Shown piece after piece: positions 13,583 through 62,841 of a stretch of DNA of 64,000 nucleotides. A program made the position numbers and the translations under genes. The stretch's first letter is position 1, and each line of letters opens with the position of its first letter. The DNA is from a bacterium (GTDB taxonomy: Bacteria > Auribacterota > Tritonobacteria > UBA1439): NCBI GenBank assembly GCA_028716845.1, contig JAQUPF010000003.1, forward strand, positions 124,001 through 188,000, written 5' to 3'. The notes beneath the pieces are model-generated. The model was not told where the DNA came from, did no database searches, and worked only from the letters and a program-made list of their open reading frames with translations.

Positions 13583-14995
13583 TCAGTCAGGCGTCCTTTT
13601 CCGCATGTTCCGCAGCAGCGAGACGCCGTTCCGGGCAAGGAGGAGGAGGCGCCGCGGCGACCGGGCGCGCGCGACGGCCCTTGCGAGGTACCGCGGCCGC
13701 AGGTAGAACGCCCTGTTCGCCCGGTTCCTGAGCCGCCAGAGATCCTCCGCCGGCAGGCCCGGCAGATTGATGGGAGGATACCCGGTGCTGTCGAAGACGT
13801 CGAGGTCTTTCCCGATCCACCCCTTCCCGATCGCCTCCTCCCTGAGCCGCGTCCCGAAGTCGGGGGTCGCAATCGTGAACGAGGCGTAGTCGGCGTCGAG
13901 CTCCCTGCTGAAGGCGATCGTCTCCATGACCGACTCGCGCGTGTCGCCCGGGAGGCCCAGGATGAAATAGGCCATCGTCTGGATGCCGGCCTCCCGGCAC
14001 ATCCTGAAGGCGTCGCGGATCCTGTCCGGCTCGATCCGCTTCTCCGCCCGCCGGAGGACCCGGAGACTCGCGCTCTCGACGCCGAGCTGGAGCATGTGGC
14101 AGCCGGCGCGCCGCATCTCCCCGAGCAGCTCCCGGTCGAGCGTGTCGACGCGCGTGTTGCAGCTCCAGGAGATGTCGAGGCCGGCGCCGGCGACCTCCCG
14201 GCAGAGCGTCATCGTCCGGTCCCTGCCGATGACGAAGGTCGGGTCGGTGAAGTAGACCTGGCGCAAGCCGAGGGAGACGAGGTGCCGGAGCTCCTCCATG
14301 ATGTTGCCGATCCGCCGCTGTCTGAACGGGACGCTCGCGTGCGAGCAGAAGGCGCACCGGTGCGGGCATCCCATGCTCCCCATCACGCGGCTGAACGGGA
14401 ACCGGCGGGCGTACGGGAGGGAGTATCGCCTGAGGGGGAAGAGCTCGTGGCGCGGCAGCGGGATCTCGAACTCGCGGGCGGCCGGGCGGCGGCCCGGCGC
14501 GAGGACGGCCCCGCCCGCCCTCGTGAGGTGGTCCGCGACGGGCTGCTCGCCGTCCGAGACCCAGTTCTCGATGAGCGGGGAGGTGAAGTCGAGGCTGACC
14601 GCGTCGAGGGCGGGGTACCGCTCCATGACCGCCGCCCCGTGGAACAGCAGGAAGCCGCCGCTCGCGAGGGTCCGGCAGCCGGCCGTCTCCCTCAGGCGCC
14701 CGACGAACGCCAGGTCCTTCTTCCAGGAGGCGTAGCCGGTGACGAAGAGGACGTGGGACGGCGCGGCCCGGACGGCGGCGGCGAGCGCCTCCCCCTCCCC
14801 CATTCGCTCAGCCCGGGCGTCCAGGACGGCCAGGTCGTGGCGCGCGTGGAGATGGCCGCTCATCACGAGGAGGTCGAGCGGCGGGGCGTAGTAGCTCGCC
14901 TTCGACGAGAAGCTGCAGTAGTTGTCGTTCTGGTAGATGATCCGGGAGGGCGGGACGAGCAGCAGGACCTTCCGCCGGACCGGGTCGGGGCTCAC
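13583..14995 (-). CDS. B12-binding-domain radical SAM enzyme
   Basis: 470 aa. The N-terminal ~150 residues form the Rossmann-like cobalamin-type domain (VLLLVPPSRIIYQND, FVTGYASWKKD, SGGFLLFHG). The GGxH element is atypical here, lacking the usual His. CxxxCxxC (GCPHRCAFC) is at about residue 210, followed by FTDPTFVIG, LGVESAS and YFILGLPGDT of the class B radical SAM core. The C-terminus has FYLRPRYLARA, shared with several other proteins in this window. The GTG start at 14995 forms a GTGA overlap with the methyltransferase stop. Relatives methylate or rearrange unactivated carbons using B12 and SAM. Reaction here unknown. Confidence 0.88.
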   Translation of the reverse strand: MSPDPVRRKVLLLVPPSRIIYQNDNYCSFSSKASYYAPPLDLLVMSGHLHARHDLAVLDARAERMGEGEALAAAVRAAPSHVLFVTGYASWKKDLAFVGRLRETAGCRTLASGGFLLFHGAAVMERYPALDAVSLDFTSPLIENWVSDGEQPVADHLTRAGGAVLAPGRRPAAREFEIPLPRHELFPLRRYSLPYARRFPFSRVMGSMGCPHRCAFCSHASVPFRQRRIGNIMEELRHLVSLGLRQVYFTDPTFVIGRDRTMTLCREVAGAGLDISWSCNTRVDTLDRELLGEMRRAGCHMLQLGVESASLRVLRRAEKRIEPDRIRDAFRMCREAGIQTMAYFILGLPGDTRESVMETIAFSRELDADYASFTIATPDFGTRLREEAIGKGWIGKDLDVFDSTGYPPINLPGLPAEDLWRLRNRANRAFYLRPRYLARAVARARSPRRLLLLARNGVSLLRNMRKRTPD

Positions 14996-15690
14996 CGGGG
15001 CCTCCTGCACAGGAAGATCCACGACGGCTTCGCGAGCGGCGGCGCGGTGGCGGGGACCCGCCGCATCGAGTACTCGAGGCCCGCCCCGCGGATGAGGGCA
15101 TCCCAGTCGCCCCGGCCGCGGAAGGCGAAGCGACCGCTCCCGCGCGTGAGGCGGAGGACGTCGCGCATGATCCGCTCCTGGATCCGCGCCCGGAGGAGAG
15201 TCCGGCGGGATGAGAAATCGACGGTCTTGATGACGCAGGACCCTCCAGGCGCGAGCCGCGCGGCGCATGCCGCGAGCGTCTCCCGCCCCTCCGCCTCTCC
15301 CATGAGGTAGAGGACGTCGGAGAGGACGATCCCCTCGCACGAGGCGGGCGGGAGGTCCCGGAGGCGCCCGACGGAGAAGGCGATGTTGTCCCGCCCGCCG
15401 ACCGTCGACAGGGCCGAGGCGATGCACACCTCGGATATGTCGATCCCCAGGACGCGGCGCGCCGGTGCGGCAAGGGCGAGGTAGTTCGCCACGACGCCGT
15501 CGCCGCAGCCGATCTCCAGGATCGTCCCCGCCGGCGGCACCCCCCGGTCGATCTCCTCGAGCGGGAGGTTCAGGATGCGGAGCCGCGCGCGGAGGCGGGT
15601 GAGGAAATCCGCCCTGCGGTAGAGCACCGCCGTTTCCCGCCTGAGGGGAGAGCGGCGCCGCTCAGCCCGCGGCCCCGGGCGCGCCGCCAT
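14992..15690 (-). CDS. Class I SAM-dependent methyltransferase
   Basis: 232 aa. The SAM-binding motif I is ILEIGCGDGVVANYLAL near residue 58, with an acidic motif II (VLGIDISE) and motif IV SDVLYLM. It closely resembles the methyltransferase at 20127-20822 (same ANxLALA and RxVxGID spacing), so the two are paralogues. It sits between a polyprenyl-phosphate GT2 and a B12-radical SAM gene, coupled to both by overlaps. The start is uncertain: ATG 15690 or 15705, both inside the upstream gene. Likely a sugar or lipid O/N/C-methyltransferase. Confidence 0.82.
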   Translation of the reverse strand: MAARPGPRAERRRSPLRRETAVLYRRADFLTRLRARLRILNLPLEEIDRGVPPAGTILEIGCGDGVVANYLALAAPARRVLGIDISEVCIASALSTVGGRDNIAFSVGRLRDLPPASCEGIVLSDVLYLMGEAEGRETLAACAARLAPGGSCVIKTVDFSSRRTLLRARIQERIMRDVLRLTRGSGRFAFRGRGDWDALIRGAGLEYSMRRVPATAPPLAKPSWIFLCRRPR

Positions 15691-16663
15691 GGCTCCATGT
15701 CTCATCGACGTCGTAGATGCGGCGCCCCCGCGTCTCGAAGTAGATCCGGGAGATCATCTCGCCGAGGAGGCCGAGCGAGATGAACTGGAAGCCGAGGATG
15801 ATGAGGAGGACCGACAGCTGGACGAGGGCGTCCTTCCCGATCGACCGGCCGAAGACGATCTTCTGCGCCGCCTCGTAGAGCCCGAAGCAGAAGCCGAAGA
15901 GGAGGGCGACGAGGCCCATGGAGCCGAACATCCGCATCGGCGTCCGCGAGTAGCTCAGGAAGAACTTGACCGTGATGATGTCGAGGAGCACGCCGGTCGT
16001 CCGCCAGAGGCCGTAGTGGGATTTCCCGTGGGGGCGGTTGACGTTCGCGATCGGGATCTCGGTGATCCGCGCGCCGAGGTCGCTCGCGAGCGCCGGGATG
16101 AACCTGTGGAGCTCCCCGGTCAGCTTGACGCCCTTGATGACCGAGCGCTTGTATGCCTTGAGCGTCGTGCCGAAATCCCTGATCGGGACCCCCGAGAGCC
16201 GGCGCATGATCGCGTTCGCCGCCCACGAGGGGATCCGCCTCGTCACGAGCAGGTCCTTCCGCTCCTTCCGCCACCCGCTCACGATGTCGTACCCCTCGCG
16301 CATCTTGTCGAGGAGCCGGCGGATGTCCTCGGGGTCGTGCTGGAGGTCGCCGTCCATCGAGATGACGACGTCGCCGCGGGCCTCGTCGAAGCCCGCGGCG
16401 AGCGCGGCGGTCTGCCCGAAGTTCCGCCGGAGCCGGATCACCTTGACCGCCGGATCCGCGCGGAAGATCTCCCGGAGGATGTCGGGGGTGCGATCGGCGC
16501 TCCCGTCGTCCACGAAGATGAGCTCGTACGACCCCCCGATCGAGTCCATCACCTTCTTCAGGCGCTCATGGAGGAGCCGGCAGGACCGCTCCTCGTTGAA
16601 GAACGGCACGACCACCGAGTAGGCGGGGCGCGCCCCCGGCCGGGGGGAAGGCTGCTCATCCAT
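15662..16663 (-). CDS. Membrane-anchored polyprenyl-phosphate glycosyltransferase (GtrB/ArnC-like GT2)
   Basis: 333 aa. GT-A domain with VVPFFNEERSC, IFVDDGSADRTPDIL and DGDLQHDPEDI (metal-binding DxD), followed by NFGQTAALAAGF and DFGTTLKAYKR. Two C-terminal membrane helices (about 235-260 and 270-295) match GtrB/ArnC/DPM1-type enzymes. These transfer a sugar (glucose, Ara4FN, GlcNAc) from a nucleotide donor to undecaprenyl phosphate at the cytoplasmic face. It starts 8 bases inside the end of the carbamoyltransferase gene. The product is probably used by a GT-C enzyme of the region. Confidence 0.93.
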   Translation of the reverse strand: MDEQPSPRPGARPAYSVVVPFFNEERSCRLLHERLKKVMDSIGGSYELIFVDDGSADRTPDILREIFRADPAVKVIRLRRNFGQTAALAAGFDEARGDVVISMDGDLQHDPEDIRRLLDKMREGYDIVSGWRKERKDLLVTRRIPSWAANAIMRRLSGVPIRDFGTTLKAYKRSVIKGVKLTGELHRFIPALASDLGARITEIPIANVNRPHGKSHYGLWRTTGVLLDIITVKFFLSYSRTPMRMFGSMGLVALLFGFCFGLYEAAQKIVFGRSIGKDALVQLSVLLIILGFQFISLGLLGEMISRIYFETRGRRIYDVDETWSHGGAPGAAG

Positions 16664-18359
16664 TCCGCTTGGGGTTCTCCGCGAGGAACGGCCCCATGGC
16701 GAGGTGGTCGAGGTGCCCCTCGATGAAGGACCGCACCGCGTCGTCGGGGCTGCAGACGATCGGTTCCTCGTGCATATTGTAGCTCGTGTTGATGATGGAG
16801 GGAAGACCGGTGATCTTCCGGTACTCGTCGATGATCGCGTAAAAGGAGGCGTTCGATTCCCGGGAGACGAGCTGGGGCCGCGCGGTCCCGTCCACGTGCA
16901 CCGCGGCTGGGCTCTCCCGCTTCATGGAGTCGGTGCAGTCGAACGTGATCGTCATGAACATCGCCGGGTGGATGTTCCGATCGACGTCCCGGTAGCACTC
17001 CGCCGCGCGCTCGACGAGCGTCGCCGGGGCGAACGGCATGAACTCGGTGCGGTTCAGGCGCTTGTTGAGCCAGTGGTTCACCGAGGGGTCCTTCGCGTGG
17101 TAGAGGATCGAGCGGTTCCCGAGGGCCCGGGGGCCGTACTCCATCCGCCCGTTGAACCGGCCGACGACTTTCCCCTCGCTGATGAGCCGGGCGATCTCCG
17201 GCTCGATCGGCCTGATCTCCCGGAAGGAGGCGCCCCGGCGCCGCATCGCCTCTGCCATCTCCCGCTCGCCGAACTCGGGGCCGAAGTAGACGTGGGCGAG
17301 CCGCAACGTCTCCGGCGCGAGATGGTCGAGGACCGCCCCCACGCCGAGGCCGCCGTCTCCCATGTGCGGGAAGATGAAGACCGACTCCACCCCCGGCAGC
17401 TCGGCGAGCTTCTGGTTGAGCCGGACATTGGCGAACACCCCCCCGGCGAGGACGAGGCGCCGCATGCCGGAGCGCTCGACCCAGGGCCGGACGAGGGCGA
17501 GGATCTCCCGTTCCGTGTGGTGCTGGAGCCAGGCGGCGATGTCCTCGCTGCTGTAGTGCTTGAACCGCTCGAGCCAGCGGGCGGCGTACGTGCCGTGCCG
17601 CTCCGTGTAGGTCGGGACGCCGTCGACGACGCGGAACGGGAAGGGGACCTCGACGCGCCGCCAGTCGCCGTGGGCGCTCAGGCCGAGGATCTTCCCCTCG
17701 TGCCGGTTCGGCTTGAAGCCGAGGTACTGCGTGAAGAGCGAGTAGACCTTGCCGAACGAGTTGAGCGCCTCCATCGAGAAGACGCGCTCGATCGTGCGGT
17801 CCCGGCAGAGGTTGATGGTGAAGGAGAGGCCGTCGCCGAAGCTGTCCGATGTCACGCAGAGCGCCTCGGGGAAGCCGGCGCAGTAGTAGGCGGAGGCGGC
17901 GTGGGCCCGATGGTGCTCGACGAAACGGATCGGCTTCCGTCGGAGCGCGCCGGGCAGGTCCCGCCGGAGGATCCGCTCCACGAGGCGCCGGTCGATCCTC
18001 CCCATCCGCGATTCGGGGAGGTAGCTGGTCATCCTGAGCCGGTACTTCACGAAGTCGGAGAGGGCGGCGGTCAGCCGGTAGCTCTTGTTCTCCCGGACGG
18101 CGGTCTCGATCTGCTGGAACTTCCGGAACCGTCGGACGATGAAGGGGGGGCTCGCGACGCTCCCGACCACGATGAGGTCCACCTCCTCCGGGGCGGTCCC
18201 CGTGCAGCGCAGGACCTCGGCGATGCTGCGGGAGGGGAAGCCCGAGCTCATCTTGATCCGGTTGAGCCGCTCCTCATTCACCGCGGCGGCGACCGCGCCG
18301 TCTTCGAAGAGGCAGGCACCGGAATCGTACTGGCCGTCCGCAAGTCCCAGAATTTTCAC
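16656..18359 (-). CDS. O-carbamoyltransferase, NodU/TobZ family
   Basis: 567 aa from GTG 18359. The YrdC-like/Kae1-like two-domain architecture shows in ILGLADGQYDSGACLF, the metal-binding histidines VEHHRAHAASAYY near residue 135, GGVFANVRLNQKL near 310, and the hallmark GRMEYGPRALGNRSIL near 415. The family carbamoylates hydroxyls of sugars or antibiotics via carbamoyl-AMP, using carbamoyl phosphate and ATP. An ATG at 18389 is possible. The TATAAT at 18400-18405 would place it almost at the transcription start, while the GTG has AAGGGA just upstream, so I prefer GTG. Predicted to carbamoylate a glycan sugar. Confidence 0.92.
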   Translation of the reverse strand: MKILGLADGQYDSGACLFEDGAVAAAVNEERLNRIKMSSGFPSRSIAEVLRCTGTAPEEVDLIVVGSVASPPFIVRRFRKFQQIETAVRENKSYRLTAALSDFVKYRLRMTSYLPESRMGRIDRRLVERILRRDLPGALRRKPIRFVEHHRAHAASAYYCAGFPEALCVTSDSFGDGLSFTINLCRDRTIERVFSMEALNSFGKVYSLFTQYLGFKPNRHEGKILGLSAHGDWRRVEVPFPFRVVDGVPTYTERHGTYAARWLERFKHYSSEDIAAWLQHHTEREILALVRPWVERSGMRRLVLAGGVFANVRLNQKLAELPGVESVFIFPHMGDGGLGVGAVLDHLAPETLRLAHVYFGPEFGEREMAEAMRRRGASFREIRPIEPEIARLISEGKVVGRFNGRMEYGPRALGNRSILYHAKDPSVNHWLNKRLNRTEFMPFAPATLVERAAECYRDVDRNIHPAMFMTITFDCTDSMKRESPAAVHVDGTARPQLVSRESNASFYAIIDEYRKITGLPSIINTSYNMHEEPIVCSPDDAVRSFIEGHLDHLAMGPFLAENPKRNG

Positions 18360-18399
18360 ATGTCCCTTATCAGTTCCACCGCAGAACAATTATTCCTGC

Positions 18400-18405
18400 A
18401 TTATA
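18400..18405 (-). promoter_or_regulatory. -10 element for the carbamoyltransferase operon
   Basis: Perfect TATAAT on the minus strand between the radical SAM stop (18475) and the carbamoyltransferase start. No recognisable -35 at the right distance. An independent promoter here would drive the five-gene series down to 11500. Confidence 0.45.
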
Positions 18406-18474
18406 CGCCCCTCTCCGACAACGCACATGAATCGCCATGGGGTTGCCAGGGATTAAGACACCTCAACCGCGCTA

Positions 18475-19929
18475 TCAGCGACGGCCACAGCCGGTCTCCA
18501 TCTTCCGTTCACCATCCTCCGCTGTCCCGTGAGACCCCTTTCTGAGGACTGCGAGATAGAACTTGTACATCATGGAAAGGATCTTTCGGCCACTGTTGAA
18601 ATTCCTCAGGATGTAGCGCGCCACCCTCGGTCGCAGGTGGAAACGGATGTATGCGCGTTTCTGGATCTTCCTGAGCCTGTCATAAGGCACCTCCGAAAGA
18701 TCATTCCTATAGTTTATGAAATCCAACGAGCCGAATGTCTCAATGTCCATTACGCGCATCGAAAGCACGCGTCTGTACAGCTCGGTACCCGGCAGGGGGG
18801 TCAGAATGGCAAAGGAGGCGCCGGTCAGCGGGAGGCTCCTTGCGAAGGAAACCGTGTGCCGTACCTCCGCAGCGGTTTCTCCTGGGAAGCCGAGCATGAA
18901 GAACCCTATCACCTCAATGCCCCCCTTCCGCAGAATGCCAACTTTTTCTCTCACGAGCTCGGGGGTGATTTGTTTTCTGATTTCCTTCAGGATGCGCGGC
19001 GAGCCGGATTCGATGCCGACGTTCACCTGGAAGCATCCGCTCCGCCTCATCAGGCGGACGTATTCCTCGTCGATGGAATCGATCCGAATGCCGTTAGGGG
19101 CGCACCATGTAATATCCACATCCTCGGCGATAATGCGTTCGCATAGTTCCCGCAGAGAACCGGAAGGGTGCGCGCAATTGCTGTCATAGAACTGAATCTC
19201 CCGGACGCCGTATTTCGATGTGAGGAGCCGTATTTCCTCCAGCGCGTTGTCGGCACTCCGGGAGCGTATAGGGCGGCCGTTGATGAGCCCCGCGGCGCAG
19301 AAGGTGCACCTCCCGGGACAACCGCGCGTGAGGACAAGAGGAGCTATCGGATACCTGCGAGAGTAGAAATTGAATGGGGTGCAGGGAAATTTCCTCGGCT
19401 CCATGAGGTCCCAGGCAGGGAAAGGAAGAGAATCCAGATCCATGACCCTTTTCTGTTCATTGACTGTTGTCTCGCCCCCTTTCCTCCAGATGAGACCCGG
19501 TATCTGGTCAAGTTCCCGTTCATCAAGGGGGCCGGAGGACAATCTCGCGGCCAAGTTGACAAGCCCTATCTCGGCCTCCCCGGAAAAGGCGTAGTTGATC
19601 TCCGGGATCACCCGGAATACGCTGTCCGGGTCGGATGAGGGGTGCGGGCCGCCCATGACAATTATCGCCCCGTGATCGATCGCCCGTATTGCCTTGGTGA
19701 TCTCACGCGCCGTTCCGAGCGCGGATGATGCCGACTTGATGCCGTACAGGTCAAAGCGTTCCGATCGAACGAGTTCCATGAGTGCCGGAGGAGCGCACTC
19801 TTTCGGTCTGATGCACAGCCGTACCGTATGCCCCTCCTTCATGAGACAGGCAGCCAGATAGCCGAGGCCCAGATCGGGCACGTACCGCCTGTAGAGTGGA
19901 TGCGATGCGAGCATTAAAAGTATGTGCAT
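18475..19929 (-). CDS. B12-binding-domain radical SAM enzyme
   Basis: 484 aa. The N-terminal cobalamin-type domain includes LGLGYLAACL, IKSASSALGTAREI and the family signature GGPHPSSDPD near residue 93. CxxxCxxC (GCPGRCTFC) is at about 204, then FYDSNCAHPS, VGIESGSPRIL and FFMLGFPGETAAEV of the core. C-terminal RFHLRPRVARYIL is a variant of the FYLRP motif found in its neighbours. ATG 19929 is preferred over the in-frame GTG at 19950. Base composition is lower in GC than the flanks. The promoter is probably at 20016-20044. It may be co-transcribed with the carbamoyltransferase series. Substrate unknown. Confidence 0.88.
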   Translation of the reverse strand: MHILLMLASHPLYRRYVPDLGLGYLAACLMKEGHTVRLCIRPKECAPPALMELVRSERFDLYGIKSASSALGTAREITKAIRAIDHGAIIVMGGPHPSSDPDSVFRVIPEINYAFSGEAEIGLVNLAARLSSGPLDERELDQIPGLIWRKGGETTVNEQKRVMDLDSLPFPAWDLMEPRKFPCTPFNFYSRRYPIAPLVLTRGCPGRCTFCAAGLINGRPIRSRSADNALEEIRLLTSKYGVREIQFYDSNCAHPSGSLRELCERIIAEDVDITWCAPNGIRIDSIDEEYVRLMRRSGCFQVNVGIESGSPRILKEIRKQITPELVREKVGILRKGGIEVIGFFMLGFPGETAAEVRHTVSFARSLPLTGASFAILTPLPGTELYRRVLSMRVMDIETFGSLDFINYRNDLSEVPYDRLRKIQKRAYIRFHLRPRVARYILRNFNSGRKILSMMYKFYLAVLRKGSHGTAEDGERKMETGCGRR

Positions 19930-20015
19930 TGCTGTCTTCAGCCGGATCACGGCCGCAAATGAGCATTGCCCTGCGCGGCGAGATGAAGAATGGCGGAACC
20001 GGGCTGCCGTTAAAC

Positions 20016-20044: not shown

Positions 20045-20126
20045 CATGCCATATCATGCCCCTCCGGACTTGAGGCGGGATGCCACCACCGGGGGCCCCT
20101 TCGACAGTTGGTGGATGGGGACGACC

Positions 20127-20822
20127 TCACGACAGGACGGCGCGGCCACGGCGGCAGATGAAGACGTTCCCCGGCGTGGCGAGCGGGACCGCGGCGGCCG
20201 AGGCCGAGAAGCCGGTCGAGGCGAGCATCGCCTTCCACTCCTCCCGCCGTCGCGGGTAGAGCCGCATCGGGACCGAGGTGGACTGGGCGCCCGTGAGCCG
20301 GAAGGCCATGTTCGCCGTGAACTCGATGATCTTCGATCTCCAGAAACGGATCCCCTCGCTCGGGTCCACCGTGTTCAGGAGCAGCGTCCCCCCCGGCGCG
20401 AGGGCATCGCGGCACTGCTCGAGGATCGGCCGGTGGCGCGGGTACGGTATGAGGTAGAGGACGCCGATGATGGCGATGGCGTCGAACGGGTCGAGCCGGA
20501 GCGTGGAGAGGTCCCCGGCGGAAAATCGGATGTTGCCGCGCGAGCCGACGGTCCTCGCGGCGATCTCGATCTTCCCGGCGTCCCTGTCGATGCCGACGAC
20601 CTCCCGGCGGGGGCCGGCGAGGGCGAGGAGGTTCGCGAAGACGCCGTGGCCGCAGCCCAGGTCGGCGACCCTGCCCTCGCGCGGCAGGAGCGCCTCGAGC
20701 GCCGGGAAGGGGACCCGCCTCGCCCGCATGGCGACGTGGAAACGGGTGGCGCGGCGCTCGCCGTCGTACAGGCGGAGGACCCGCTCGAGGATGTCATCGC
20801 GCGGGGGGGGGGCGCCGCTCAT
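20127..20822 (-). CDS. Class I SAM-dependent methyltransferase
   Basis: 231 aa. Motif I is VADLGCGHGVFANLLALA, with motif II VVGIDRDAG and motif IV IAIIGVLYLIPYP. Clear paralogue of the methyltransferase at 14992-15690. ATG 20822 is supported by an ATGA overlap with the upstream methyltransferase gene. It is the last gene of a three-gene operon (membrane protein, methyltransferase, methyltransferase). Likely acts on a lipid or sugar. The acceptor cannot be predicted. Confidence 0.83.
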   Translation of the reverse strand: MSGAPPPRDDILERVLRLYDGERRATRFHVAMRARRVPFPALEALLPREGRVADLGCGHGVFANLLALAGPRREVVGIDRDAGKIEIAARTVGSRGNIRFSAGDLSTLRLDPFDAIAIIGVLYLIPYPRHRPILEQCRDALAPGGTLLLNTVDPSEGIRFWRSKIIEFTANMAFRLTGAQSTSVPMRLYPRRREEWKAMLASTGFSASAAAVPLATPGNVFICRRGRAVLS

Positions 20823-29353: not shown

Positions 29354-29354
29354 T

Positions 29355-49091: not shown

Positions 49092-49107
49092 ACCTCCGGA
49101 GTCACGG

Positions 49108-49827: not shown

Positions 49828-49837
49828 GACCCCGCTG

Positions 49838-54100: not shown

Positions 54101-55759
54101 TCAAGCGGTTCTTCCTCTGTCGATTTCGTGATACCTCGATCTCTTCCGAGGCACGTACCAGATCTCCCACGAGCCTGCGTCGCAGTCGAGGTCCAGGCGG
54201 ACGAGACCGGGGAACCTGCTCCGGATGAACCCGATGTCCGAGCCCCCCTGCTCCCGCAGCACTATGAACATCGGCCCGCGGCCCGTCCGCTCGCACGCCG
54301 CATGGACCTTGTCGAGGCCATCGTCTCCGGCCAGCGGCGCGGCCCAGATGTTGCACTGGTCCCGCCTCCCGTAGAGCGCCTTGATGTAGTAGGTCCCCCA
54401 GTCGCCGTGGATGAAGACATGGGTGTCCGCGTGCCGGTCGAGCGCCTCCCGCAGGCACTCGAAGTTCGGGACGAGACCGAATCCCGCCAGATGCACGCGC
54501 TCCCAGTCGCGGTAGTCCATGCCGGACAGCCTGTAATACTGCCAGAGATTCAGCCCGATGAAGAGCGCGAGGAGCGCCGCGACCAGCCGGTCGCCGCGCA
54601 GGCGCGAGAGGATCAGGAACAGAATGAGCAGCGGGAACGGGTACGCCATGAGCAGATGGTACATTGAATACGCCGCCGGGGAGAAGACGACGGCGATCAC
54701 CACGGCCGCGCCAGCGCACACGTTCACGATGATGAAGCCGCGGTCCTCCGGCCGCCTCCGGCGCCGGACGGCCCCGTAGAGGAGGAGCAGAACGGTCACG
54801 CCGAAAAGCGCGACGCCGCTCGCCGGGGCGTTCTTGTCCGTGTGCGAAACGCGCCCGGCGGCGAGGAGCGGGTTCGTCAGGTACCGCGTCATCCCCGCGA
54901 GGTGGCGGGCCGGCGAGGAGTAGTCATAGCCCCGCTCCTCCAGGCCGATGTCCATGCAGATGCCTCCCCAGGCGTAGTACGGCATCTCCCTGGATCCGCC
55001 GGAGCCGCACCGGGCGGTGAGGAGGGCGCCGGTGAGGACGCCGGCCACCGCCGCCGCGACCGCGACGTGCAGGAGGAAGCGCCGCCGGGGCCCCCGCTCC
55101 CGGAGGACCGCCCGGTTCCGGACCGCGGCGCGGAGGAGGAAGAGCGGGATCACCGGGAGGTAGAAGAGGAAGGAGAGCTTCGCCCAGACTCCCAGGAAGA
55201 CGAGGAGGCCGGCGAGGACCGGGTAACCGCAGGAGGGGCGCGCGCCGCGCGTGAGGAGGGATGACCACCGCTCGATCATAAGAACGATGAGGAGAATGAT
55301 GGCGATCTGAATACCGGCCACGCTCGTGTCCGTGACGTGCTGGAAGGCATAGGGCATGAAGGCGAGGAGGAGCAGGAAGGTCTTCAGCGCGCCGAAGCCG
55401 CACAGCCTGTGCATGATGAGCGCCTGCGCCCCGAGCGCGAAAACGCCGAGCAATCTCGCGGAGTGTGGCGACGGCCACAGGAGGAAGAGCGGGAAGTAGA
55501 TGATCGACGAGAGGCTCCCGATGTACGTCTCAGCGCGCAGCGGCAGGTAGCGGTCCGGCCAGACGGCGAGATCCCATATTCCGGAGAGCGGCTCCAGTCT
55601 GTTGAGGGGATACCATGACCAGGCGATGTTGCTGTAGGGGAGAAAGGAGTCATCGTTGAACGGGATGCGCAAATACAGCCGGACGACGAGGAGGCAGATG
55701 ACGATGAATAGAGCCCGCTCGACCGCCTTCCGCAACCGCATGCCGTTCATTTCCGCCAC
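54101..55759 (-). CDS. GT-C-like membrane protein, paralogue of the one at 50724
   Basis: 552 aa from GTG 55759 (ATG codons at 55750 and 55741 are alternatives). IPFNDDSFLPYSNIAW, WYPLNRL, YLPLRAETYIGSL, WPSPHSARLLGVFALG, CGFGALKTFLLLL and RRDQCNIWAAPL match the companion protein position by position. Asp pair in the first outer loop, about eleven helices, soluble tail. It follows the FAD-enzyme gene by 37 bases, so it may be read from the 61310 promoter region. Likely GT-C glycosyltransferase. Confidence 0.82.
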   Translation of the reverse strand: MAEMNGMRLRKAVERALFIVICLLVVRLYLRIPFNDDSFLPYSNIAWSWYPLNRLEPLSGIWDLAVWPDRYLPLRAETYIGSLSSIIYFPLFLLWPSPHSARLLGVFALGAQALIMHRLCGFGALKTFLLLLAFMPYAFQHVTDTSVAGIQIAIILLIVLMIERWSSLLTRGARPSCGYPVLAGLLVFLGVWAKLSFLFYLPVIPLFLLRAAVRNRAVLRERGPRRRFLLHVAVAAAVAGVLTGALLTARCGSGGSREMPYYAWGGICMDIGLEERGYDYSSPARHLAGMTRYLTNPLLAAGRVSHTDKNAPASGVALFGVTVLLLLYGAVRRRRRPEDRGFIIVNVCAGAAVVIAVVFSPAAYSMYHLLMAYPFPLLILFLILSRLRGDRLVAALLALFIGLNLWQYYRLSGMDYRDWERVHLAGFGLVPNFECLREALDRHADTHVFIHGDWGTYYIKALYGRRDQCNIWAAPLAGDDGLDKVHAACERTGRGPMFIVLREQGGSDIGFIRSRFPGLVRLDLDCDAGSWEIWYVPRKRSRYHEIDRGRTA

Positions 55760-55796: not shown

Positions 55797-57077
55797 TCAC
55801 CGCCTCTTCAGGACCGCCTCGGCCGTCTCGCAGCCGCTCAGGAGGGCGGTGTGCATCGTCCGCGTGCACGGGTATCTCCTGTACACGCCCGCGTGGTAGA
55901 GGCCCGGGTACCGGCTCACGACCGGAGGGTTCCTGTAACCGAGGCCGTAGCGCGGCGTGCTATACGGTATTTTGAATATCCGGTGCCAGAGGTACTCGAA
56001 GCCGGGCCGCATGGTCCGTATGTCCTCCAGGTACGTCTCCGCGAGGTCCTCATCCGATGCCCGGTAGAGCGGCGAGTCCTCGTCGGCGTAGGAGAAGAGG
56101 TAGTAGACGTACTCGCCCGATGCCCCCCCCTCGGGGTGGAGGGCTGTGTGGTTGAAAATACCCCCGAAACGGAGGGGCGGCGCCATGAAGACGTTCCAGT
56201 AGTGCGGCGAGATGAGGTGCCGGGAGCCGAAGCACATGCAGATGAGCGGCCGGTAGCGGATCGTGGCGAGTTCCGGGTCGAGCCGGTCCGGCTCCTCGTG
56301 GATGCGGAGGAGGATCTCCGGCGGGACGGCGCTGACGATCCTCGGCGCGATGAAGAGGCGGCGCGCCCCGTCCGGCCCGACCGCCTCCACCGTTTCCCGG
56401 CCGACCCGCACCGCCGCTGTCTCGGTCATGATTTGTCCGCCCTTCCCCTCGATCGCGGCGGCGATCCGGTCGATGAGCGTCTTCAGGTCCGCTGAGGGGT
56501 AGCCGTAGCGGTCTCTGTTCCTCGCGCTCTCGTGAAGGCGGCTGCCGAGCCAGCCGGTGCTCACCGCCGAGAGCGGCGTGCCGAACTCCATCTCCGCGAG
56601 CGGCTCGAAGATCGCCTCCCGGGCGCGCCGGCCGATCATCCGCTCGATCCACTCATCGCACCTGACGGCATCGAGGGCATGCCAGTCCCTCCTGAGGTAG
56701 CAGGTGAGGCCGAACCGGACGAACCGGAGCCGCTCGATCGGGGTGAGCGGCCTGAAGGTGAAGATATGCCAGGGCTGGGTGAGCGGGTACGGCCTGCCGT
56801 GGAACCAGAAGACGACCTTGATCCGCCTCCAGATCATCGAGTCCCACATGCCGAACCGCTTCAGGAAGGCGTGGGTGACGGTGTCGATTCCCATGACGTG
56901 GTGGTACGTCATCGGGATCCACTTCCCGTCCTGGCGGAACGACCGCGCGAGGCCGCCGAGCTCCGCCTCCCGCTCGAGGAGCAGCACCCGCATCCCCCCC
57001 GAGGCCAGCCTCTCGGCCGCGGCGAGGCCCGCGGGTCCGCCGCCGAGGAGCAGGGCGTCGTACCGTTCCTCCGTCAC
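55797..57077 (-). CDS. FAD-dependent oxidoreductase, protoporphyrinogen-oxidase / UDP-Galp-mutase superfamily
   Basis: 426 aa. ALLLGGGPAGLAAAERLA is the FAD-binding motif, with LLLEREAELGGLARSF, YHHVMGIDTVTHAFLKRFG, and PYPLTQPWHIFTFRPLTP near residue 98, then EMEFGTPLSAVSTGWLGSR. C-terminal YPGLYHAGVYRRYPCTRTM is the FAD-binding end. It belongs to the same broad superfamily as the enzyme at 39605, but the two are not close. GTG 57077 overlaps the preceding radical SAM stop (GTGA). Probably oxidises or isomerises a lipid or sugar produced by its neighbours. Confidence 0.86.
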   Translation of the reverse strand: MTEERYDALLLGGGPAGLAAAERLASGGMRVLLLEREAELGGLARSFRQDGKWIPMTYHHVMGIDTVTHAFLKRFGMWDSMIWRRIKVVFWFHGRPYPLTQPWHIFTFRPLTPIERLRFVRFGLTCYLRRDWHALDAVRCDEWIERMIGRRAREAIFEPLAEMEFGTPLSAVSTGWLGSRLHESARNRDRYGYPSADLKTLIDRIAAAIEGKGGQIMTETAAVRVGRETVEAVGPDGARRLFIAPRIVSAVPPEILLRIHEEPDRLDPELATIRYRPLICMCFGSRHLISPHYWNVFMAPPLRFGGIFNHTALHPEGGASGEYVYYLFSYADEDSPLYRASDEDLAETYLEDIRTMRPGFEYLWHRIFKIPYSTPRYGLGYRNPPVVSRYPGLYHAGVYRRYPCTRTMHTALLSGCETAEAVLKRR

Positions 57078-58498
57078 TGCGGCGAGACCTCCTGCTCGAT
57101 GACGCGCGATTTCAGCGCGAGGGCGAGGGTCTTGAGGAACCCCAGCTTCTTGTACCGGGAGTAGTTCCGCACGAGGCAGAGCTTGAAGACGAAATCGAAG
57201 ATCGGGTTCGGGGGGAGGCGCGTGAGAAACCGGAGCAGCGGCGCGAGCCGCGGGTGGCGCACGGCGAGGTAGAAGAGGCGCTGGGTGTTCAGGATGCGCC
57301 CCTTCCCCTCAAGGCGCAGGGGGTTGCCGCGGAGGTGCATCGGCTCGAGGCGGTCGAAGTCGAAATCCGGGTCGAGGTGGCCGTGGGTCCGGGCGTACTC
57401 GTACATCTCCGTCCTCGGGAGCGGCTGGTAGACGTAGGCGAACGGATGGTCCGTCCGGCAGGCGATGTTCAGCCGCACGGTCTCCCATGCCCGCGCGGGG
57501 GTCTCGGCTGGCATGCAGAACATGTTCGTCGTCCTGAGGATGATTCCCTCCGCCCTCACCCAGCGGGACGCCGCAAGGATCTGCTCGTTCGTGACGCCCT
57601 TCCCCCCCACCCCGTTCCGGATGAACTCGCTCCCGCTCTCGATCCCGAACGACATCCCGTAGCACCCCGCCGCGCGCAAATCGCGGACGATCTCCTCGGT
57701 GAGCGTGTCCGCACGGACGCCGCAGAAGAACGGGAGGCCGACCCGCTCGCGGTAGAGGGGGAGGAACGCCCGGAGCCACTCCCTGTTCCAGACGAACACC
57801 TCGTCGTCGAAGGTGACGGTCCTGAAGCCGAGGGTCGCCTTCTGCTCCGCGATCTCCCCGGCGAAGCTCCCCGGGTCCCGCATCCGGAGGTACCTCCCCT
57901 TCCCGCGGTAGAGCGAGCGGAAGTACGGGTCCGTGCAGAAGGTGCATCTGAACGGGCAGCCGCGGCTCCCGATGAACGTCTTCGTCGTCTTCTCGCGGAG
58001 GAACCGGTACTTCCGGTAGAGCGACCAGTCGGGACGGGGCAGGCCCTCGAGGTCCTCCCGGAGGGGGCGGACCTCGTTCCTGACGATCTCGCCGTCGCGC
58101 TTGACCCAGAGGTTGGGGATGCGCCCGATGTCGCCTCCCCTCTCCATGGCCTCCGCGAGCTCGAGCAGGGCGTCCTCGCCCTCGCCGACGCAGACGACGT
58201 CCACGCCGTCCCGTTCGATCATCTCGGGGCAGACGGTCGGGTGGGCGCCGCCGAACACGGTCGCGGCGCCGAGGTCACGCCTGACGCGCGCGGCGAGCCG
58301 CAGCATGCCGACGTGCTCGCCGGTCGTGACGGAGAACCCCGCGATCCGCGGGCCGAACCGCGCGAGCTCGACGAGAAGGTTCCGCTCGAGCGCGGTGACG
58401 AAAACCTCGCACTCGTGGCCCGCCGCCCGGAGGACGGCGGCGAGGTACATGACGCCGTGGTATTCCTGGGGGAAGCTGTGGACGAAGGCGATCCTCAT
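57074..58498 (-). CDS. B12-binding-domain radical SAM enzyme
   Basis: 474 aa. IAFVHSFPQEYHGVMYLAAV, GFSVTTGEHVGMLRLA and GGAHPTVCPEM near residue 84 form the cobalamin-type domain. CxxxCxxC (GCPFRCTFC) is at about 181, then FDDEVFVWNREWL, FGIESGSEFI and MFCMPAETPARA. The C-terminal region is helical (HPRLAPLLRFLTRLPPNP), lacking FYLRP. ATG 58498 overlaps the upstream stop (ATGA) and the end overlaps the FAD gene, so it is tightly coupled on both sides. Third of three consecutive B12-radical SAM genes. Confidence 0.9.
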   Translation of the reverse strand: MRIAFVHSFPQEYHGVMYLAAVLRAAGHECEVFVTALERNLLVELARFGPRIAGFSVTTGEHVGMLRLAARVRRDLGAATVFGGAHPTVCPEMIERDGVDVVCVGEGEDALLELAEAMERGGDIGRIPNLWVKRDGEIVRNEVRPLREDLEGLPRPDWSLYRKYRFLREKTTKTFIGSRGCPFRCTFCTDPYFRSLYRGKGRYLRMRDPGSFAGEIAEQKATLGFRTVTFDDEVFVWNREWLRAFLPLYRERVGLPFFCGVRADTLTEEIVRDLRAAGCYGMSFGIESGSEFIRNGVGGKGVTNEQILAASRWVRAEGIILRTTNMFCMPAETPARAWETVRLNIACRTDHPFAYVYQPLPRTEMYEYARTHGHLDPDFDFDRLEPMHLRGNPLRLEGKGRILNTQRLFYLAVRHPRLAPLLRFLTRLPPNPIFDFVFKLCLVRNYSRYKKLGFLKTLALALKSRVIEQEVSPQ

Positions 58499-59940
58499 TT
58501 ATCGACGTTGTCGTAGCCGTAGATGTGGTAGTAGATCATCGTGTAGCCGAAGTCAAGGCCGTAGCGGACCCCCCTCGAGAGGTAGAGGGCGAGACGGATG
58601 AAGTAGCGGAGCCGCTGCCGCAGGATCATCCTGAGGAGGCGCCGGCCGAAGGTGAGGAAGTAGGCGGCCTTCTGGTACAGCTCGACCTTCCGGACGCTGA
58701 GCGCCTTCGATTCGACCACGGCGCCGAAGGTGATGTTGTCGGCCGCCTTCCAGCGATCCTCGTCTATCCATCCGCCGTACTGGTGGATCTGCCTGCACCC
58801 CTCCTCGGTGAACGGCTTGTAGATGAAGAAGGCGGTCCTGTTCGCGTCGAGCTCCATCGCGAGGCGTATGGTCTCACGGAGCGTCGCGGGGGTCTCCGCG
58901 GGGCCCCCGAGGATGTTGAACGCGGTGAAGCCGATCCCGTTCGCGCGCGCGATCCGGAAGATCTCCTTGATCTTCTCCTTCGAGATGTGCTTCCCGTAGA
59001 CCTCGTTCCTGATGAAGTCGTTCCCCGCCTCGATCCCCACCCTGAGGAGCGCGCATCCCGACTTCCCGAGGAGCTCCAGCTTCTCCTCGTCGAGCTGGTC
59101 GATCCGGGCGAACATGCTGTACTTCAGCTCCCCCCACGCGCCCGTCTCCATGTACGCCTCGCAGAACGGTCTGAGCCATTTGATGCTCGCGGTGGGGATC
59201 TGGTCGAAGAGCTGGGCGAGGCGCATGTTCCTGTGCCTGTATTTCTCCCACTGGAAGGCGATCTCCCGCGCGTAGGCGACCGGCTCCCGGATCCGGTAGT
59301 AGCGCCCCTCCACGGCCTCCGAGATGCCGTGGGCGTCGCAGTAGGTGCACTTGTAGGGGCAGCCGCGCGTGCCGATGATGTAGAGCATGCCGAGGAAGTA
59401 GAAATAGAGGTCGAGGTCCTCCCAGAGATTCCAGTCGGGGATGGGAAGGGCGTTGATGTCCTCTATGAATCGGCCCTTCCCCGTCGTGACGACGGCGCCG
59501 TCCCGCTTCGTCCAGACGCCCGGGATGCCGGCGAGATCCCCTCCGCGCTCCCGCCGGTCCAGGTACTCCGTGAGGGTGCACTCGCCGTCGCCGATGAAGA
59601 GGGCCTCCACGCCGGGGATGGAGAGCGTCTCCTCGGGCTTCAGGGAGGCGTGGTAGCCGCCGAGGATGACGGGGAGGCCGCAGTGCCGCCCGACGTGCTC
59701 GATCACCGCCCTGACGTACTGCATGTACATGGTGTTGCAGGAGATCCCGATGATGTCCGGCCGGTCCCGCCCGATGTCCGCGAGGATTTTCTCCCGCCAG
59801 CGCCGCCTGCGGAAGGTCAGGTCGGTGATGGTGGCGCGGTGGTCCGTCCGTTCGTTCAGCCAGGTCGCGAGGCAGGTGATGGCGATATCGAGGGCGCTGT
59901 AGTCGCCCCCGAGCGTCGCGTTGACGAACTTGATCTTCAC
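58495..59940 (-). CDS. B12-binding-domain radical SAM enzyme
   Basis: 481 aa from GTG 59940, which overlaps the upstream stop (GTGA). IKFVNATLGGDYSALDIAI, GISCNTMYMQYVRAVI and GGYHASLKPEE near residue 94 form the N-terminal domain. CxxxCxxC (GCPYKCTYC) is at about 194, then LFDQIPTASIKWL in place of the usual D-D-x-F motif, VGIEAGNDFI and FNILGGPAETPATL. C-terminal YIGS-type helices contain many Tyr and Arg residues (YFIRLALYLSRGVRYG). Second gene of the coupled triplet. Distinct enough from its neighbours to act on a different position or substrate. Confidence 0.9.
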   Translation of the reverse strand: MKIKFVNATLGGDYSALDIAITCLATWLNERTDHRATITDLTFRRRRWREKILADIGRDRPDIIGISCNTMYMQYVRAVIEHVGRHCGLPVILGGYHASLKPEETLSIPGVEALFIGDGECTLTEYLDRRERGGDLAGIPGVWTKRDGAVVTTGKGRFIEDINALPIPDWNLWEDLDLYFYFLGMLYIIGTRGCPYKCTYCDAHGISEAVEGRYYRIREPVAYAREIAFQWEKYRHRNMRLAQLFDQIPTASIKWLRPFCEAYMETGAWGELKYSMFARIDQLDEEKLELLGKSGCALLRVGIEAGNDFIRNEVYGKHISKEKIKEIFRIARANGIGFTAFNILGGPAETPATLRETIRLAMELDANRTAFFIYKPFTEEGCRQIHQYGGWIDEDRWKAADNITFGAVVESKALSVRKVELYQKAAYFLTFGRRLLRMILRQRLRYFIRLALYLSRGVRYGLDFGYTMIYYHIYGYDNVDK

Positions 59941-61310
59941 CGGAAGAACCTCCGCATCTTCACCATGAGCTTCCTGATCCCCGACGGGGTGAGGAGGTGG
60001 CGCATGATGTAGCGCCACCGGCGCGGCTTGAGATAGAAGCTGAACAGCGCCATCTTCTGGTAGCGCTTGAGCGTCCGCGCGGGCAGGTTCGGGTCCTCGA
60101 AGGCGCGCTTCGAGTAGTAGTTGAAGTCGGCGTAGTTCGTGCTGATCCTGTAGTTGAGGCCCCTGACCATGTCGTGCAGGTACGTCCCCGGGAGCGGCGT
60201 CGTGATGTTGAAGGTCGCCTCGTCGATGTCGAGGGCGGCGGCGAATCGGATGGTCTCCCGCAGCTCCTCCCTCGTCTCCGTCGGCGCACCGAGCATGAAG
60301 AAACAGCCCGCCCTGATCCCCGCCCGCTGGGCGGCGGCGACGGTCCTCCGGATGTTCTCGAGGCGGATCCGCTTCCGATAGACCTCGTCGAGTATCCGCT
60401 GGCTCCCGGACTCGGCCCCCACATGGAGGTAGCGGACGCCGGCCCGGTACATCCGGCGGAGCATCGCGTCGTCGGTCAGGTCCGCCCGCGCGTTGCATGC
60501 CCAGAGGATGTCGAGCCGGGCGGCGATGAGGCGGTCGCAGAGCTCGCCGAGCCAGCCCTTGTGCGCGGTCAGGGTGTCGTCGTGGAAGAAGATCCCCCGG
60601 ACGCCGTACTCCTCCTTCAGTGACGTGATTTCCTCGACGATGTTCGCCGGGCTCCGCAGGCGCAGCCGCTTCCCGAAGATCCTGTTGAGCGTGGGCTGGC
60701 AGTAGGTGCACCGGAACGGGCAGCCCCGCGACGCCACCACGGTCGTCCCCCGGATGTCCGTCCCCAGGATGTCGAGGTAGTGCCAGGAGGCCATGTAGCT
60801 CTCCATGTCGAAGAGCCTGCGCTCGGGGAAGCGGATCGAATCGAGGTCGGCGATCGGCTCGCGCGGCTCCGTCGTCACGATCCGCCCGCCTTCCCTGTAG
60901 CAGATGCCCCTGATCCCGCCGAGATCGCGCGACGGCGCCCGCTCGACGATCTCGACGAACGTCCGCTCCGCCTCGCCGAGGGCCACGACGTCCACGTCGT
61001 CGAGGAGGGTCTCCGGGAGGACCGTCGCGTGCGGACCGCCGGCGACGACGAACGCCCCCAGCCCGCGTGCCCGGCGGGCGGCGGCGATCCCGCGCTCGAA
61101 GCTCATCGTGTCGAAGAAGATCCCCGCGACGCCCGGCCGGGCCGCCCCGATCGCCGCGTGGAACTCCTCCGCGCTCCGCATGAACGTCCCGTCCACGAGC
61201 GTCACGCGGTCCCGCAGGGCCGGCGGGAGATTGGACGCGAGGTACCCGAGGCCGAGCGGCGGATCGCCCGACGGCGAGTGGAGCCGTGGAAACACGAGCG
61301 CGATGTTCAT
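59937..61310 (-). CDS. B12-binding-domain radical SAM enzyme
   Basis: 457 aa. IALVFPRLHSPSGDPPLGLG, LASNLPPALRDRVTLVDG and GGPHATVLPET near residue 90 form the cobalamin-type domain. CxxxCxxC (GCPFRCTYC) is at about 197, then FFHDDTLTAHKGWL, VGAESGSQRIL and FFMLGAPTETREEL. C-terminal FYLKPRRWRYIMRHLLT is a member of the FYLRP group. It leads the operon that continues through two more B12-radical SAM genes and the FAD enzyme. Extended -10 promoter at 61336-61344. Confidence 0.9.
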   Translation of the reverse strand: MNIALVFPRLHSPSGDPPLGLGYLASNLPPALRDRVTLVDGTFMRSAEEFHAAIGAARPGVAGIFFDTMSFERGIAAARRARGLGAFVVAGGPHATVLPETLLDDVDVVALGEAERTFVEIVERAPSRDLGGIRGICYREGGRIVTTEPREPIADLDSIRFPERRLFDMESYMASWHYLDILGTDIRGTTVVASRGCPFRCTYCQPTLNRIFGKRLRLRSPANIVEEITSLKEEYGVRGIFFHDDTLTAHKGWLGELCDRLIAARLDILWACNARADLTDDAMLRRMYRAGVRYLHVGAESGSQRILDEVYRKRIRLENIRRTVAAAQRAGIRAGCFFMLGAPTETREELRETIRFAAALDIDEATFNITTPLPGTYLHDMVRGLNYRISTNYADFNYYSKRAFEDPNLPARTLKRYQKMALFSFYLKPRRWRYIMRHLLTPSGIRKLMVKMRRFFR

Positions 61311-61335
61311 GTCAGGAGCCGTTCATTGAATTTTC

Positions 61336-61344
61336 ATTATATCA
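61336..61344 (-). promoter_or_regulatory. Extended -10 promoter for the three-radical-SAM operon
   Basis: TGATATAAT on the minus strand (perfect TATAAT with TGn extension), about 26 bases before ATG 61310. No good -35. The downstream GAAAA matches that of the promoter at 36094. Confidence 0.6.
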
Positions 61345-61425
61345 CAAGGGGGGAACCGTCCGGACGGCACCGTTGAAACGCGGATCCGTAGCCGCGCGGG
61401 AGGGCGGTCCCCGGCCGCCCGGGCC

Positions 61426-62841
61426 TCACCATATCGAGCCGGCCGCCTTCGCGAGCATCTGGAACTCATGCCACGATCGCACCGAGAGGAGCCTCCTGGC
61501 GACGTAGGACGGCCGGCAATAGAACGATTTGAAAAACCGCTTCTGCCACCGGTCAAGCTCATCGGCGGGAAAGACGGAAAAGTAGTTTCCCATCTCGGCG
61601 ATGGACTCCCGCCTGCCGCGGGTATATTCCGCCCAGAAATCCCGCCCCGTCTCTTCCATCACCTGGGAATACAATCTCGATGGAGGGCACGGCGTGAGCT
61701 TGTTCACCTGGATGAAATCGCAGGAGAGCGATTTGGCGAATCGGATGGTCCTTTCGAGCGAAACGCGATCCTCTCCGGGGTTGCCGATCATGAAGAACGC
61801 GAGCGTGGAGATGCCCGCCTCGCGCGCCCATGCGAACGCCGCGCGAATCCGCTCGAGCGGGATGCTGCGACTGAGCATTCTGAGGACCTCGGCGTCCCCG
61901 GATTCGACACCCATGTGTATCTTGAAGCATCCCGCCTGATGCATCGCCTTGAGCATCTCGGGGTTCACGAGATCCGCGCGCGTCCTGACCGACCAGAGCA
62001 CGTCGATCCCCCTGGTGCGAATGGCATCGCAGATGGCAAAAACCCTGTCCGGGCTGAGCGTAAAGGTCTCGTCCTGGAACCAGATCTCCCGTATGCCGTG
62101 CCTCCTGTAGCATTCCTCGATCTCGTCGATGACGTGCCCGGCGCTGCGCATCTGGTAGGTGATGCTCCCCACGTCGCAATACGCACATTTGAAGGGGCAG
62201 CCGTAGCTGGATATCATCACAGTGATCGGCCGGCGCTTCGACATGACGCACCTGTACGCGTGGTTCGGGAGCAGGTGCCGCGCGGGGAATGGCACCTCCT
62301 CAAGGGAGGTGCCCCGGTCCCGCCGAGGCGTCTCCCGCACGGCACCGTTCCTCCTGTGGATGAGACCGTTGACATGCTCGAGATCGCCGGAGCCCTCTTC
62401 GAGGGCGCGGAGCAGCGCGGGAAGGCTCTCCCACCCCTCGCCGACGATTCCGTAGTCGATGCAGGAGTGCGAGAGCGTCTCGCGGGGGTAGATGCCCATG
62501 TGCATCCCCCCCACGATGACGGGGAGGGGATATCGCTCTCTGACTGCGGCAATGGAGGGGAGGACGTCCAGGAAGGATTCCGTTATCAGGTTGTAGCAGA
62601 CGGCCGCCGGCCTGAACCGGACCAACTCCTCCGCGATGTCCCGCGGCGACATCTTCAGCGCGAACGCCTCGATGTAATTGACATCGAACCCCTCCCTCTC
62701 CAGCGCGCCCGCGAGGTAGGCGAGGCTCAGGTTGGGCAGTATCTGAGCGACATCGGTATAGGCCCTGCGCACCTTCTCCGTGTACATGAGCTCGGGAACC
62801 GCCTGCGGCAGATTCACGAGCGCGACCCTGCACGCGTTCAT
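61426..62841 (-). CDS. B12-binding-domain radical SAM enzyme
   Basis: 471 aa. VALVNLPQAVPELMYTEKV, ILPNLSLAYLAGAL, VCYNLITESFLDVL and GGMHMGIYPRE near residue 111 form the cobalamin-type domain. CxxxCxxC (GCPFKCAYC) is at about 215, then FQDETFTLSPDRV, MGVESGDAEVL and FFMIGNPGEDRVSL. C-terminal FYCRPSYVARRLLSVRS is a member of the FYLRP group. ATG 62841 overlaps the stop of the upstream non-B12 radical SAM (ATGA), suggesting two consecutive radical steps on one substrate. Confidence 0.9.
   Translation of the reverse strand: MNACRVALVNLPQAVPELMYTEKVRRAYTDVAQILPNLSLAYLAGALEREGFDVNYIEAFALKMSPRDIAEELVRFRPAAVCYNLITESFLDVLPSIAAVRERYPLPVIVGGMHMGIYPRETLSHSCIDYGIVGEGWESLPALLRALEEGSGDLEHVNGLIHRRNGAVRETPRRDRGTSLEEVPFPARHLLPNHAYRCVMSKRRPITVMISSYGCPFKCAYCDVGSITYQMRSAGHVIDEIEECYRRHGIREIWFQDETFTLSPDRVFAICDAIRTRGIDVLWSVRTRADLVNPEMLKAMHQAGCFKIHMGVESGDAEVLRMLSRSIPLERIRAAFAWAREAGISTLAFFMIGNPGEDRVSLERTIRFAKSLSCDFIQVNKLTPCPPSRLYSQVMEETGRDFWAEYTRGRRESIAEMGNYFSVFPADELDRWQKRFFKSFYCRPSYVARRLLSVRSWHEFQMLAKAAGSIW

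Follow-up and report, generated by a model that had tools for sequence, protein, structure and literature searches.

Why does a bacterial genome gather so many cobalamin-type (class B) radical S-adenosylmethionine (SAM) enzymes in one place, and on what do they act? The question is raised by a 64,000-nucleotide stretch of DNA (the window; positions 124,001 to 188,000 of contig C3 of the metagenome-assembled genome (MAG) G000), in which a first-pass annotation had counted eleven such proteins among glycan genes. The host MAG (2.68 Mb, 36 contigs, 95% complete) is taken as a member of Candidatus Omnitrophota by protein similarity rather than by a marker-gene tree; the closest named relative of the protein encoded at 58495-59940 comes from a Candidatus Omnitrophota MAG (57%), and another MAG has one at 88%. 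Our analysis points, with more confidence than doubt, to enzymes that remodel the sugars of a lipid-carrier-linked surface glycan, as HpnJ, AprD4 or MoeK5/GenK act on theirs.

We asked whether the B12-type radical SAM genes are really concentrated here. A profile built on the proteins of the locus found 28 of them in the genome, 18 of which fall within C3:117.8-231.9 kb (114 kb, 4% of the genome; the island), spanning window coordinates -6.2 to +107.9 kb, so that the window is only the middle part of the array. Under uniform placement this has a binomial P of ~2e-18, and in 2000 simulations of random placement the densest 114 kb never held more than 8 such genes. The proposed local enrichment is therefore real, and an even density over the genome is ruled out. 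These enzymes make up 11 of the ~49 window genes (22%) and about one fifth of the island genes. Rfam and tRNA scans of the window gave no matches.

Gene calls recovered all eleven reading frames at the positions first annotated, as follows.

13583..14995, minus: enzyme 1, AprD4-like, degenerate B12 domain (PF04055 only; lacks GGxH/GExE)
18475..19950, minus: enzyme 2 (PF02310 + PF04055; nearest NCBIfam Sden_1168, 180 bits, cut-off 575)
26325..27800, plus: enzyme 3 (PF02310 + PF04055)
29534..30982, minus: enzyme 4, the most HpnJ-like of the window (252 bits, cut-off 577.6; best match of its model AprD4)
37046..38476, plus: enzyme 5 (PF02310 + PF04055)
45243..46736, minus: enzyme 6 (PF02310 + PF04055)
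46928..48406, plus: enzyme 7 (PF02310 + PF04055; ortholog C074, 68%)
57074..58498, minus: enzyme 8 (PF02310 + PF04055; ortholog C068, 78%, dN 0.15, dS 0.46)
58495..59940, minus: enzyme 9 (orthologs C067 85%, L026 87%, L027 57%)
59937..61310, minus: enzyme 10 (PF02310 + PF04055; ortholog C066, 76%)
61426..62841, minus: enzyme 11 (PF02310 + PF04055; orthologs C064 70%, B030 68%)

The CxxxCxxC motif for the [4Fe-4S] cluster is present in the radical SAM domain of all 18 island proteins, intact as CPxxCxxC in the eleven of the window. The further claim that each carries an N-terminal cobalamin domain stood for ten, which match PF02310 above cut-off, and not for enzyme 1, which has no such match; it retains the N-terminal fold, but in the alignment it lacks the GGxH and GExE signatures kept by most others, and it probably does not bind B12. 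The start first given for enzyme 2 (19929) is uncertain, with a GTG at 19950 as the alternative. Two radical SAM genes without a B12 domain were also found as announced, at 6792-7892 (SPASM type) and 62838-64031.

The absence of near-identical copies was borne out as well, since the closest pair of the whole island is only 45% identical. When placed on a tree with homologs (82 in all), the 18 enzymes of the island stand in 18 separate places (18 label changes against a shuffled mean of 16.5). They did not arise as a tandem expansion, as the first-pass annotation had argued for its eleven, and they are not a single clade; by tree and NCBIfam scores, the eleven do not form one clade of known function. 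Recent tandem duplication is ruled out by the same two results.

To our knowledge, reactions have been assigned to only a minority of the B12-dependent radical SAM superfamily. The nearest NCBIfam models of the island proteins are HpnJ, BchE, ApyD, Sden_1168 (a P-methyltransferase) and AprD4, families that mostly act on sugars or glycolipids (HpnJ, AprD4), and HpnJ gives the best or second-best score for 7 of the 11 window proteins. All scores stay below the curated cut-offs: HpnJ (TIGR03471) reaches 252 bits in the window and 359 in the island for a cut-off of 577.6, AprD4 (NF033070) at best 154 for 500, BchE (TIGR02026) 206 in the island for 481. By sequence and by predicted fold, AprD4 is the closest solved structure for the members tested. 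The AlphaFold model of enzyme 1 matched it best with Z 33.8 over 409 residues (next match, Z 27.8) and that of enzyme 4 with Z 30.3 over 404 residues, in both cases ahead of MgmA, TsrM, OxsB and CysS and including the N-terminal domain, although a fold shared with AprD4 is no demonstration of function.

The ladderane-type model (TIGR04072) bears on another explanation, in which acyl or alkyl chains are coupled, cyclised or methylated, as in tetraether, ladderane or similar lipids, and the glycosyltransferases add headgroups. The radical SAM enzymes Tes, GrsAB and Gms do such chemistry in known lipids (PMC11868695), and Omnitrophota MAGs were reported with Mss homologues in the same paper and with ladderane-like clusters in another (PMC9902471). 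The model gives ~80-136 bits; however, all members fall short of its cut-off of 360, HpnJ outscores it for most of them, and no acyl-chain genes were seen among the window genes scanned. We consider this explanation rather improbable.

Tailoring of a ribosomally synthesised and post-translationally modified peptide (RiPP), or of another small-molecule natural product, appears very unlikely. Some B12-type radical SAM enzymes do modify peptides, and the model of ApyD, a RiPP enzyme, reaches 182 bits, but its cut-off is 750, the Pfam matches include no nonribosomal peptide synthetase or polyketide synthase domains, and comparison with the collinear island of the related genome G003 revealed no conserved small reading frame between the window's genes, which speaks against a RiPP precursor there. 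Two conserved small frames lie outside the window, one being a truncated radical SAM remnant near a transposase-like fragment.

What surrounds the enzymes in the window is listed here.

3075..4049, plus: NAD-dependent sugar 4,6-dehydratase/epimerase family (PF16363/PF01370; LegB-like below cut-off)
4022..4555, plus: hexapeptide-repeat acyltransferase (PF00132)
5670..6791, plus: UDP-GlcNAc 2-epimerase (PF02350, 330 bits)
6792..7892, minus: radical SAM/SPASM protein without B12 domain (PF04055 + PF13186)
7889..8653, minus: GT2 glycosyltransferase (PF00535)
9736..11499, plus: GT-C (PMT_2-like) membrane protein (PF13231 near cut-off; ~10 transmembrane segments)
14992..15627, minus: SAM methyltransferase (PF13649)
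15662..16663, minus: GT2, ArnC/PgfS-like, polyprenyl-phosphate sugar synthase type (NF007986, 219 bits, below cut-off 529)
16656..18359, minus: carbamoyltransferase (PF16861 + PF02543)
20127..20822, minus: SAM methyltransferase (PF13649)
20819..21580, minus: SAM methyltransferase (PF08241)
21577..23232, minus: GT-C glycosyltransferase (PF13231 above cut-off)
23444..24298, plus: YdjC-family deacetylase, HpnK-like (PF04794, 199 bits)
24379..26097, minus: GT-C glycosyltransferase (PF13231)
27800..29353, plus: GT-C glycosyltransferase (PF13231)
30979..32721, minus: AsnB-type glutamine amidotransferase (PF00733 + PF13537; TIGR01536 above cut-off)
32709..33452, minus: GT2 glycosyltransferase (PF00535)
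34662..36029, minus: GT87 (GT-C) glycosyltransferase (PF09594, 77.5 bits)
36140..36955, plus: SAM methyltransferase (PF08241)
38487..39608, minus: DegT aminotransferase, sugar aminotransferase (PF01041, 373 bits; PseC-like below cut-off)
39605..41026, minus: FAD-dependent amine-oxidase-like oxidoreductase (PF01593)
41072..41542, minus: GNAT acetyltransferase (PF13302)
41805..43712, plus: polytopic GT-C-like protein, DUF6020 (PF19484; ~9 transmembrane segments)
43713..45233, minus: polytopic membrane protein (no Pfam match; ~7 transmembrane segments; G003 ortholog 64%)
48390..49091, plus: SAM methyltransferase (PF08241; in block 46928-50542, conserved in G003)
49108..49827, plus: polysaccharide deacetylase, NodB-type (PF01522)
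49838..50542, plus: GT2 glycosyltransferase, AglJ/PpgS-like (TIGR04182, 117 bits, below cut-off 325)
50724..52466, minus: polytopic membrane protein (no Pfam match; ~9 transmembrane segments)
52722..54032, minus: GT2 glycosyltransferase (PF00535)
54101..55750, minus: polytopic membrane protein, paralog of 50724-52466 (45% identity)
55797..57077, minus: FAD-dependent amine-oxidase-like oxidoreductase (PF01593, 97.9 bits; NF005560 above cut-off)
62838..64000 (gene to 64031, beyond the window end), minus: radical SAM protein without B12 domain (PF04055 at C3:187378-187812; orthologs 54%)

By Pfam and NCBIfam, glycosyltransferase, sugar-nucleotide and sugar-modifying genes occur together as in a surface polysaccharide locus, and the region is a glycan locus, in line with the setting first annotated. 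The window holds five GT2 enzymes (one ArnC/PgfS-like), five methyltransferases, four Pfam-supported GT-C proteins and ~7 other polytopic proteins, of which those without a family match are left out of the GT-C count; the flanking DNA encodes further GT-C proteins as well as a GHMP kinase and a nucleotidyltransferase. Elsewhere in the island, an AICARFT/IMPCHase-like domain (PF01808, 106 bits; C3:202077-203633, L011:14080-15633) with a 72% ortholog in G003 perhaps marks an amino sugar formyltransferase. At L013:7980-11030, one protein joins a GT-C glycosyltransferase to an NHL-repeat propeller; its orthologs in G001 and G003 are 60-65% identical.

Deacetylase genes occur near some of the enzymes. 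The HpnK-like deacetylase at 23444-24298, two genes from a B12-type radical SAM gene, matches HpnK (TIGR03473) over its full length with 202 bits for a cut-off of 232.6 and belongs to a group at 23.4-29.4 kb with GT-C; a GT2, NodB-type deacetylase, methyltransferase and B12-type radical SAM group lies at 46.9-50.5 kb, and a similar GT2, deacetylase and radical SAM group in locus L017 (C10, ~65-70 kb). With these genes so dense, the recurrence is suggestive only.

Such groups recall HpnJ, the last of three steps on lipid-linked glucosamine, after the glycosyltransferase HpnI and the deacetylase HpnK (PMC12583986). As in that bacteriohopanetetrol cyclitol ether pathway, a B12-type radical SAM enzyme stands beside a glycosyltransferase and an HpnK/YdjC deacetylase, the sugar would be carried on a lipid, and one island member falls within the HpnJ clade: the protein at C3:212.4-213.9 kb (window +88 kb, outside the window), the one with 359 bits to HpnJ, groups with HpnJ of the Mycetohabitans hpnI-hpnJ-hpnK operon and a Lawsonia plasmid protein (SH-aLRT 99). 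The locus differs from that pathway in having 18 divergent enzymes rather than one, all below the HpnJ cut-off, with GT-C and polyprenyl-type GT2 around them, and no detected hopene cyclase. In G000 and four relatives the cyclase was not detected apart from an 80-residue, 25-bit match in G000, by a model that was above cut-off in none of 14 control genomes and whose sensitivity is thus not demonstrated; a hopanoid pathway is unsupported.

Two other systems offer comparisons. AprD4, the radical SAM diol dehydratase of apramycin, acts on an aminosugar (PMC5461906), in an aminoglycoside cluster, whereas the context here is a surface glycan. MoeK5 and GenK/GenD1 are methylases of the cobalamin radical SAM class in moenomycin and gentamicin (PMC8992657). 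Compared by description, they share with the island enzymes the cobalamin-type radical SAM class, theirs working on sugar-containing products. Moenomycin is also carbamoylated and amidated, and carbamoyltransferase and amidotransferase enzyme types are found in the window too, but no phosphoglycolipid gene set was recognised here. The "heavily C-alkylated" product first proposed goes further than the data, considering that the nearest characterised relatives include the non-alkylating HpnJ and AprD4 and that enzyme 1 is probably not a B12 binder.

We also looked at the island in relatives. Ten of its 18 B12-type radical SAM genes have orthologs in another genus at 68-85% identity, and these are, as judged from nonsynonymous to synonymous rate ratios (dN/dS) of ~0.1-0.3, under purifying selection, the ratios being rough at these moderate to high dS values. 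Collinearity with G003:C44 covers the right two thirds of the island but not the part at ~13.5-29.5 kb. G002:C97 carries 15 such genes, few of them orthologous to those of the island, and G001 has 10 on two contigs; the island adjoins the same neighbour gene block (O023-O034) in G000, G001 and G002. Across genera it shows a conserved core with variable content. In this it resembles O-antigen, capsule or exopolysaccharide loci, where glycosyltransferases and sugar-modifying genes turn over between genera while the position on the chromosome stays the same. It differs from them by the share of B12-type radical SAM genes, by the many GT-C and by the lack of a recognised Wzx, Wzy or WaaL in the window.

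The variable part could also mean a mosaic, in which enzymes of several unrelated pathways piled up in a tolerant glycan-rich locus with no common substrate class. Little orthology between islands of different genera (G003 excepted), the scatter over the tree, and a transposase-like fragment with truncated radical SAM remnants, at 65-67 kb and in a fused gene at C3:218.2 kb, are consistent with it; against it stand the long block collinear with G003 and under purifying selection, glycan-gene neighbours throughout, and the shared chromosomal neighbours in three genera. We regard a mosaic as unlikely.

The two spots with remnants deserve description. At window coordinates 65471-66568, past the window end (L011:1471-2568), the transposase-like fragment, recognised by eye, lies beside a truncated radical SAM frame that matches at two places in G003:C44. 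At L012:10205-11797 (C3:218205-219800), the first part of a B12-type radical SAM frame shares ~70% identity with the SPASM radical SAM gene next to it. This has the look of an in-frame fusion with a truncated copy of that gene, but could also be a wrong start call.

B12-binding domains number 20-30 in 5 of 6 genomes of the host family and 1-26 in the other sampled genomes of the phylum; therefore, the richness is not unique to the host family. In a related Omnitrophota genome, one match (G011:C19:392490-392834) lies inside a 28,618-codon open frame, perhaps a giant protein. In other phyla, where loci were picked from match lists and are not a random sample, relatives occur in plasmid glycan islands of Lawsonia intracellularis, Solidesulfovibrio carbinolicus and S. 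magneticus and less clearly of strain Smac51. On plasmid 1 of L. intracellularis (L059), a B12-type radical SAM protein 52% identical to the HpnJ-clade island member has GT2, methyltransferase, SIS, HAD and GHMP kinase genes as neighbours. On a Citrobacter portucalensis plasmid (L065:8348-19734), five radical SAM genes stand with GH3, N-acetyltransferase, PAP2 and fatty acid desaturase genes in what looks like a lipid or small-molecule island.

Considering all this, we propose that the window would be the middle of a 114-kb cell-surface glycan or glycolipid locus. In this scheme, a lipid carrier receives sugars from GT2 enzymes of the polyprenyl-phosphate type, and at the outer face GT-C membrane enzymes pass these sugars on. 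The B12-type radical SAM enzymes may act on nucleotide-bound or, more likely, lipid-carrier-bound sugars, in partnership with deacetylases, methyltransferases, the amidotransferase, the carbamoyltransferase and FAD oxidoreductases. Their chemistry could be HpnJ-like, turning lipid-linked glucosamine into a cyclitol ether by ring contraction after HpnI-type glycosylation and HpnK-type deacetylation, AprD4-like, by radical deoxygenation of a sugar, or MoeK5/GenK-like, by C-methylation, so that C-alkylation is one option among several. The glycan link of these genes is supported by context; the sugar substrate, the lipid linkage and the reaction of each enzyme are inferred.

Several observations weigh against this proposal. 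As no island member reaches any curated NCBIfam cut-off, substrate and reaction are not established, and for several members the non-sugar models BchE, ApyD and Sden_1168 score near HpnJ. Among the window proteins scanned, which include many polytopic ones without a family, we recognised no polymerase, flippase or ligase to which export could be assigned. PF13231 GT-C genes are widespread (of 37 in the whole genome, 7 fall in the island and another 5 between it and the end of the contig), hence their enrichment in the island is modest, and GT2 counts by PF13641, spread across the genome, are uninformative. The deacetylase association is not shown beyond chance and alone is not significant, because across these glycan islands about 1 gene in 7 encodes a B12-type radical SAM enzyme. 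Moreover, relatives occur in non-glycan settings, on the Citrobacter plasmid beside a desaturase and PAP2, and in Azoarcus. Whether the eleven serve one common product is a separate matter; a set of modules that can be swapped would account for the differing gene content of the genera at least as well.

On cofactor supply, a search for one gene family, CobS, found none in five genomes (G000, G001, G002, G003 and G006) with 23-30 B12-binding domains each, and cobalamin riboswitches are present in three of the five, G000 included; these bacteria likely salvage corrinoids.

In conclusion, 18 divergent members among glycan genes, ten with clear sister-genus orthologs, narrow the likely substrate to lipid-linked sugars, and the island gives compact gene groups that can be tested. 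In the literature on such enzymes with polysaccharide or glycosyltransferase clusters and on Omnitrophota glycans, we found no paper on such a locus, most subscription journals being outside the coverage. More tentatively, and with doubt prevailing, Omnitrophota of the host family might rebuild lipid-carrier sugars by means of a large repertoire of exchangeable B12-type radical SAM enzymes (cyclitol ring contraction, deoxygenation, branching C-methylation), giving a new class of radical-remodelled surface glycans. If the glycan reading is true, surface glycans would be diversified by radical carbon chemistry, and there would be a link between vitamin B12 supply and the cell surface in bacteria whose genomes yielded no CobS.

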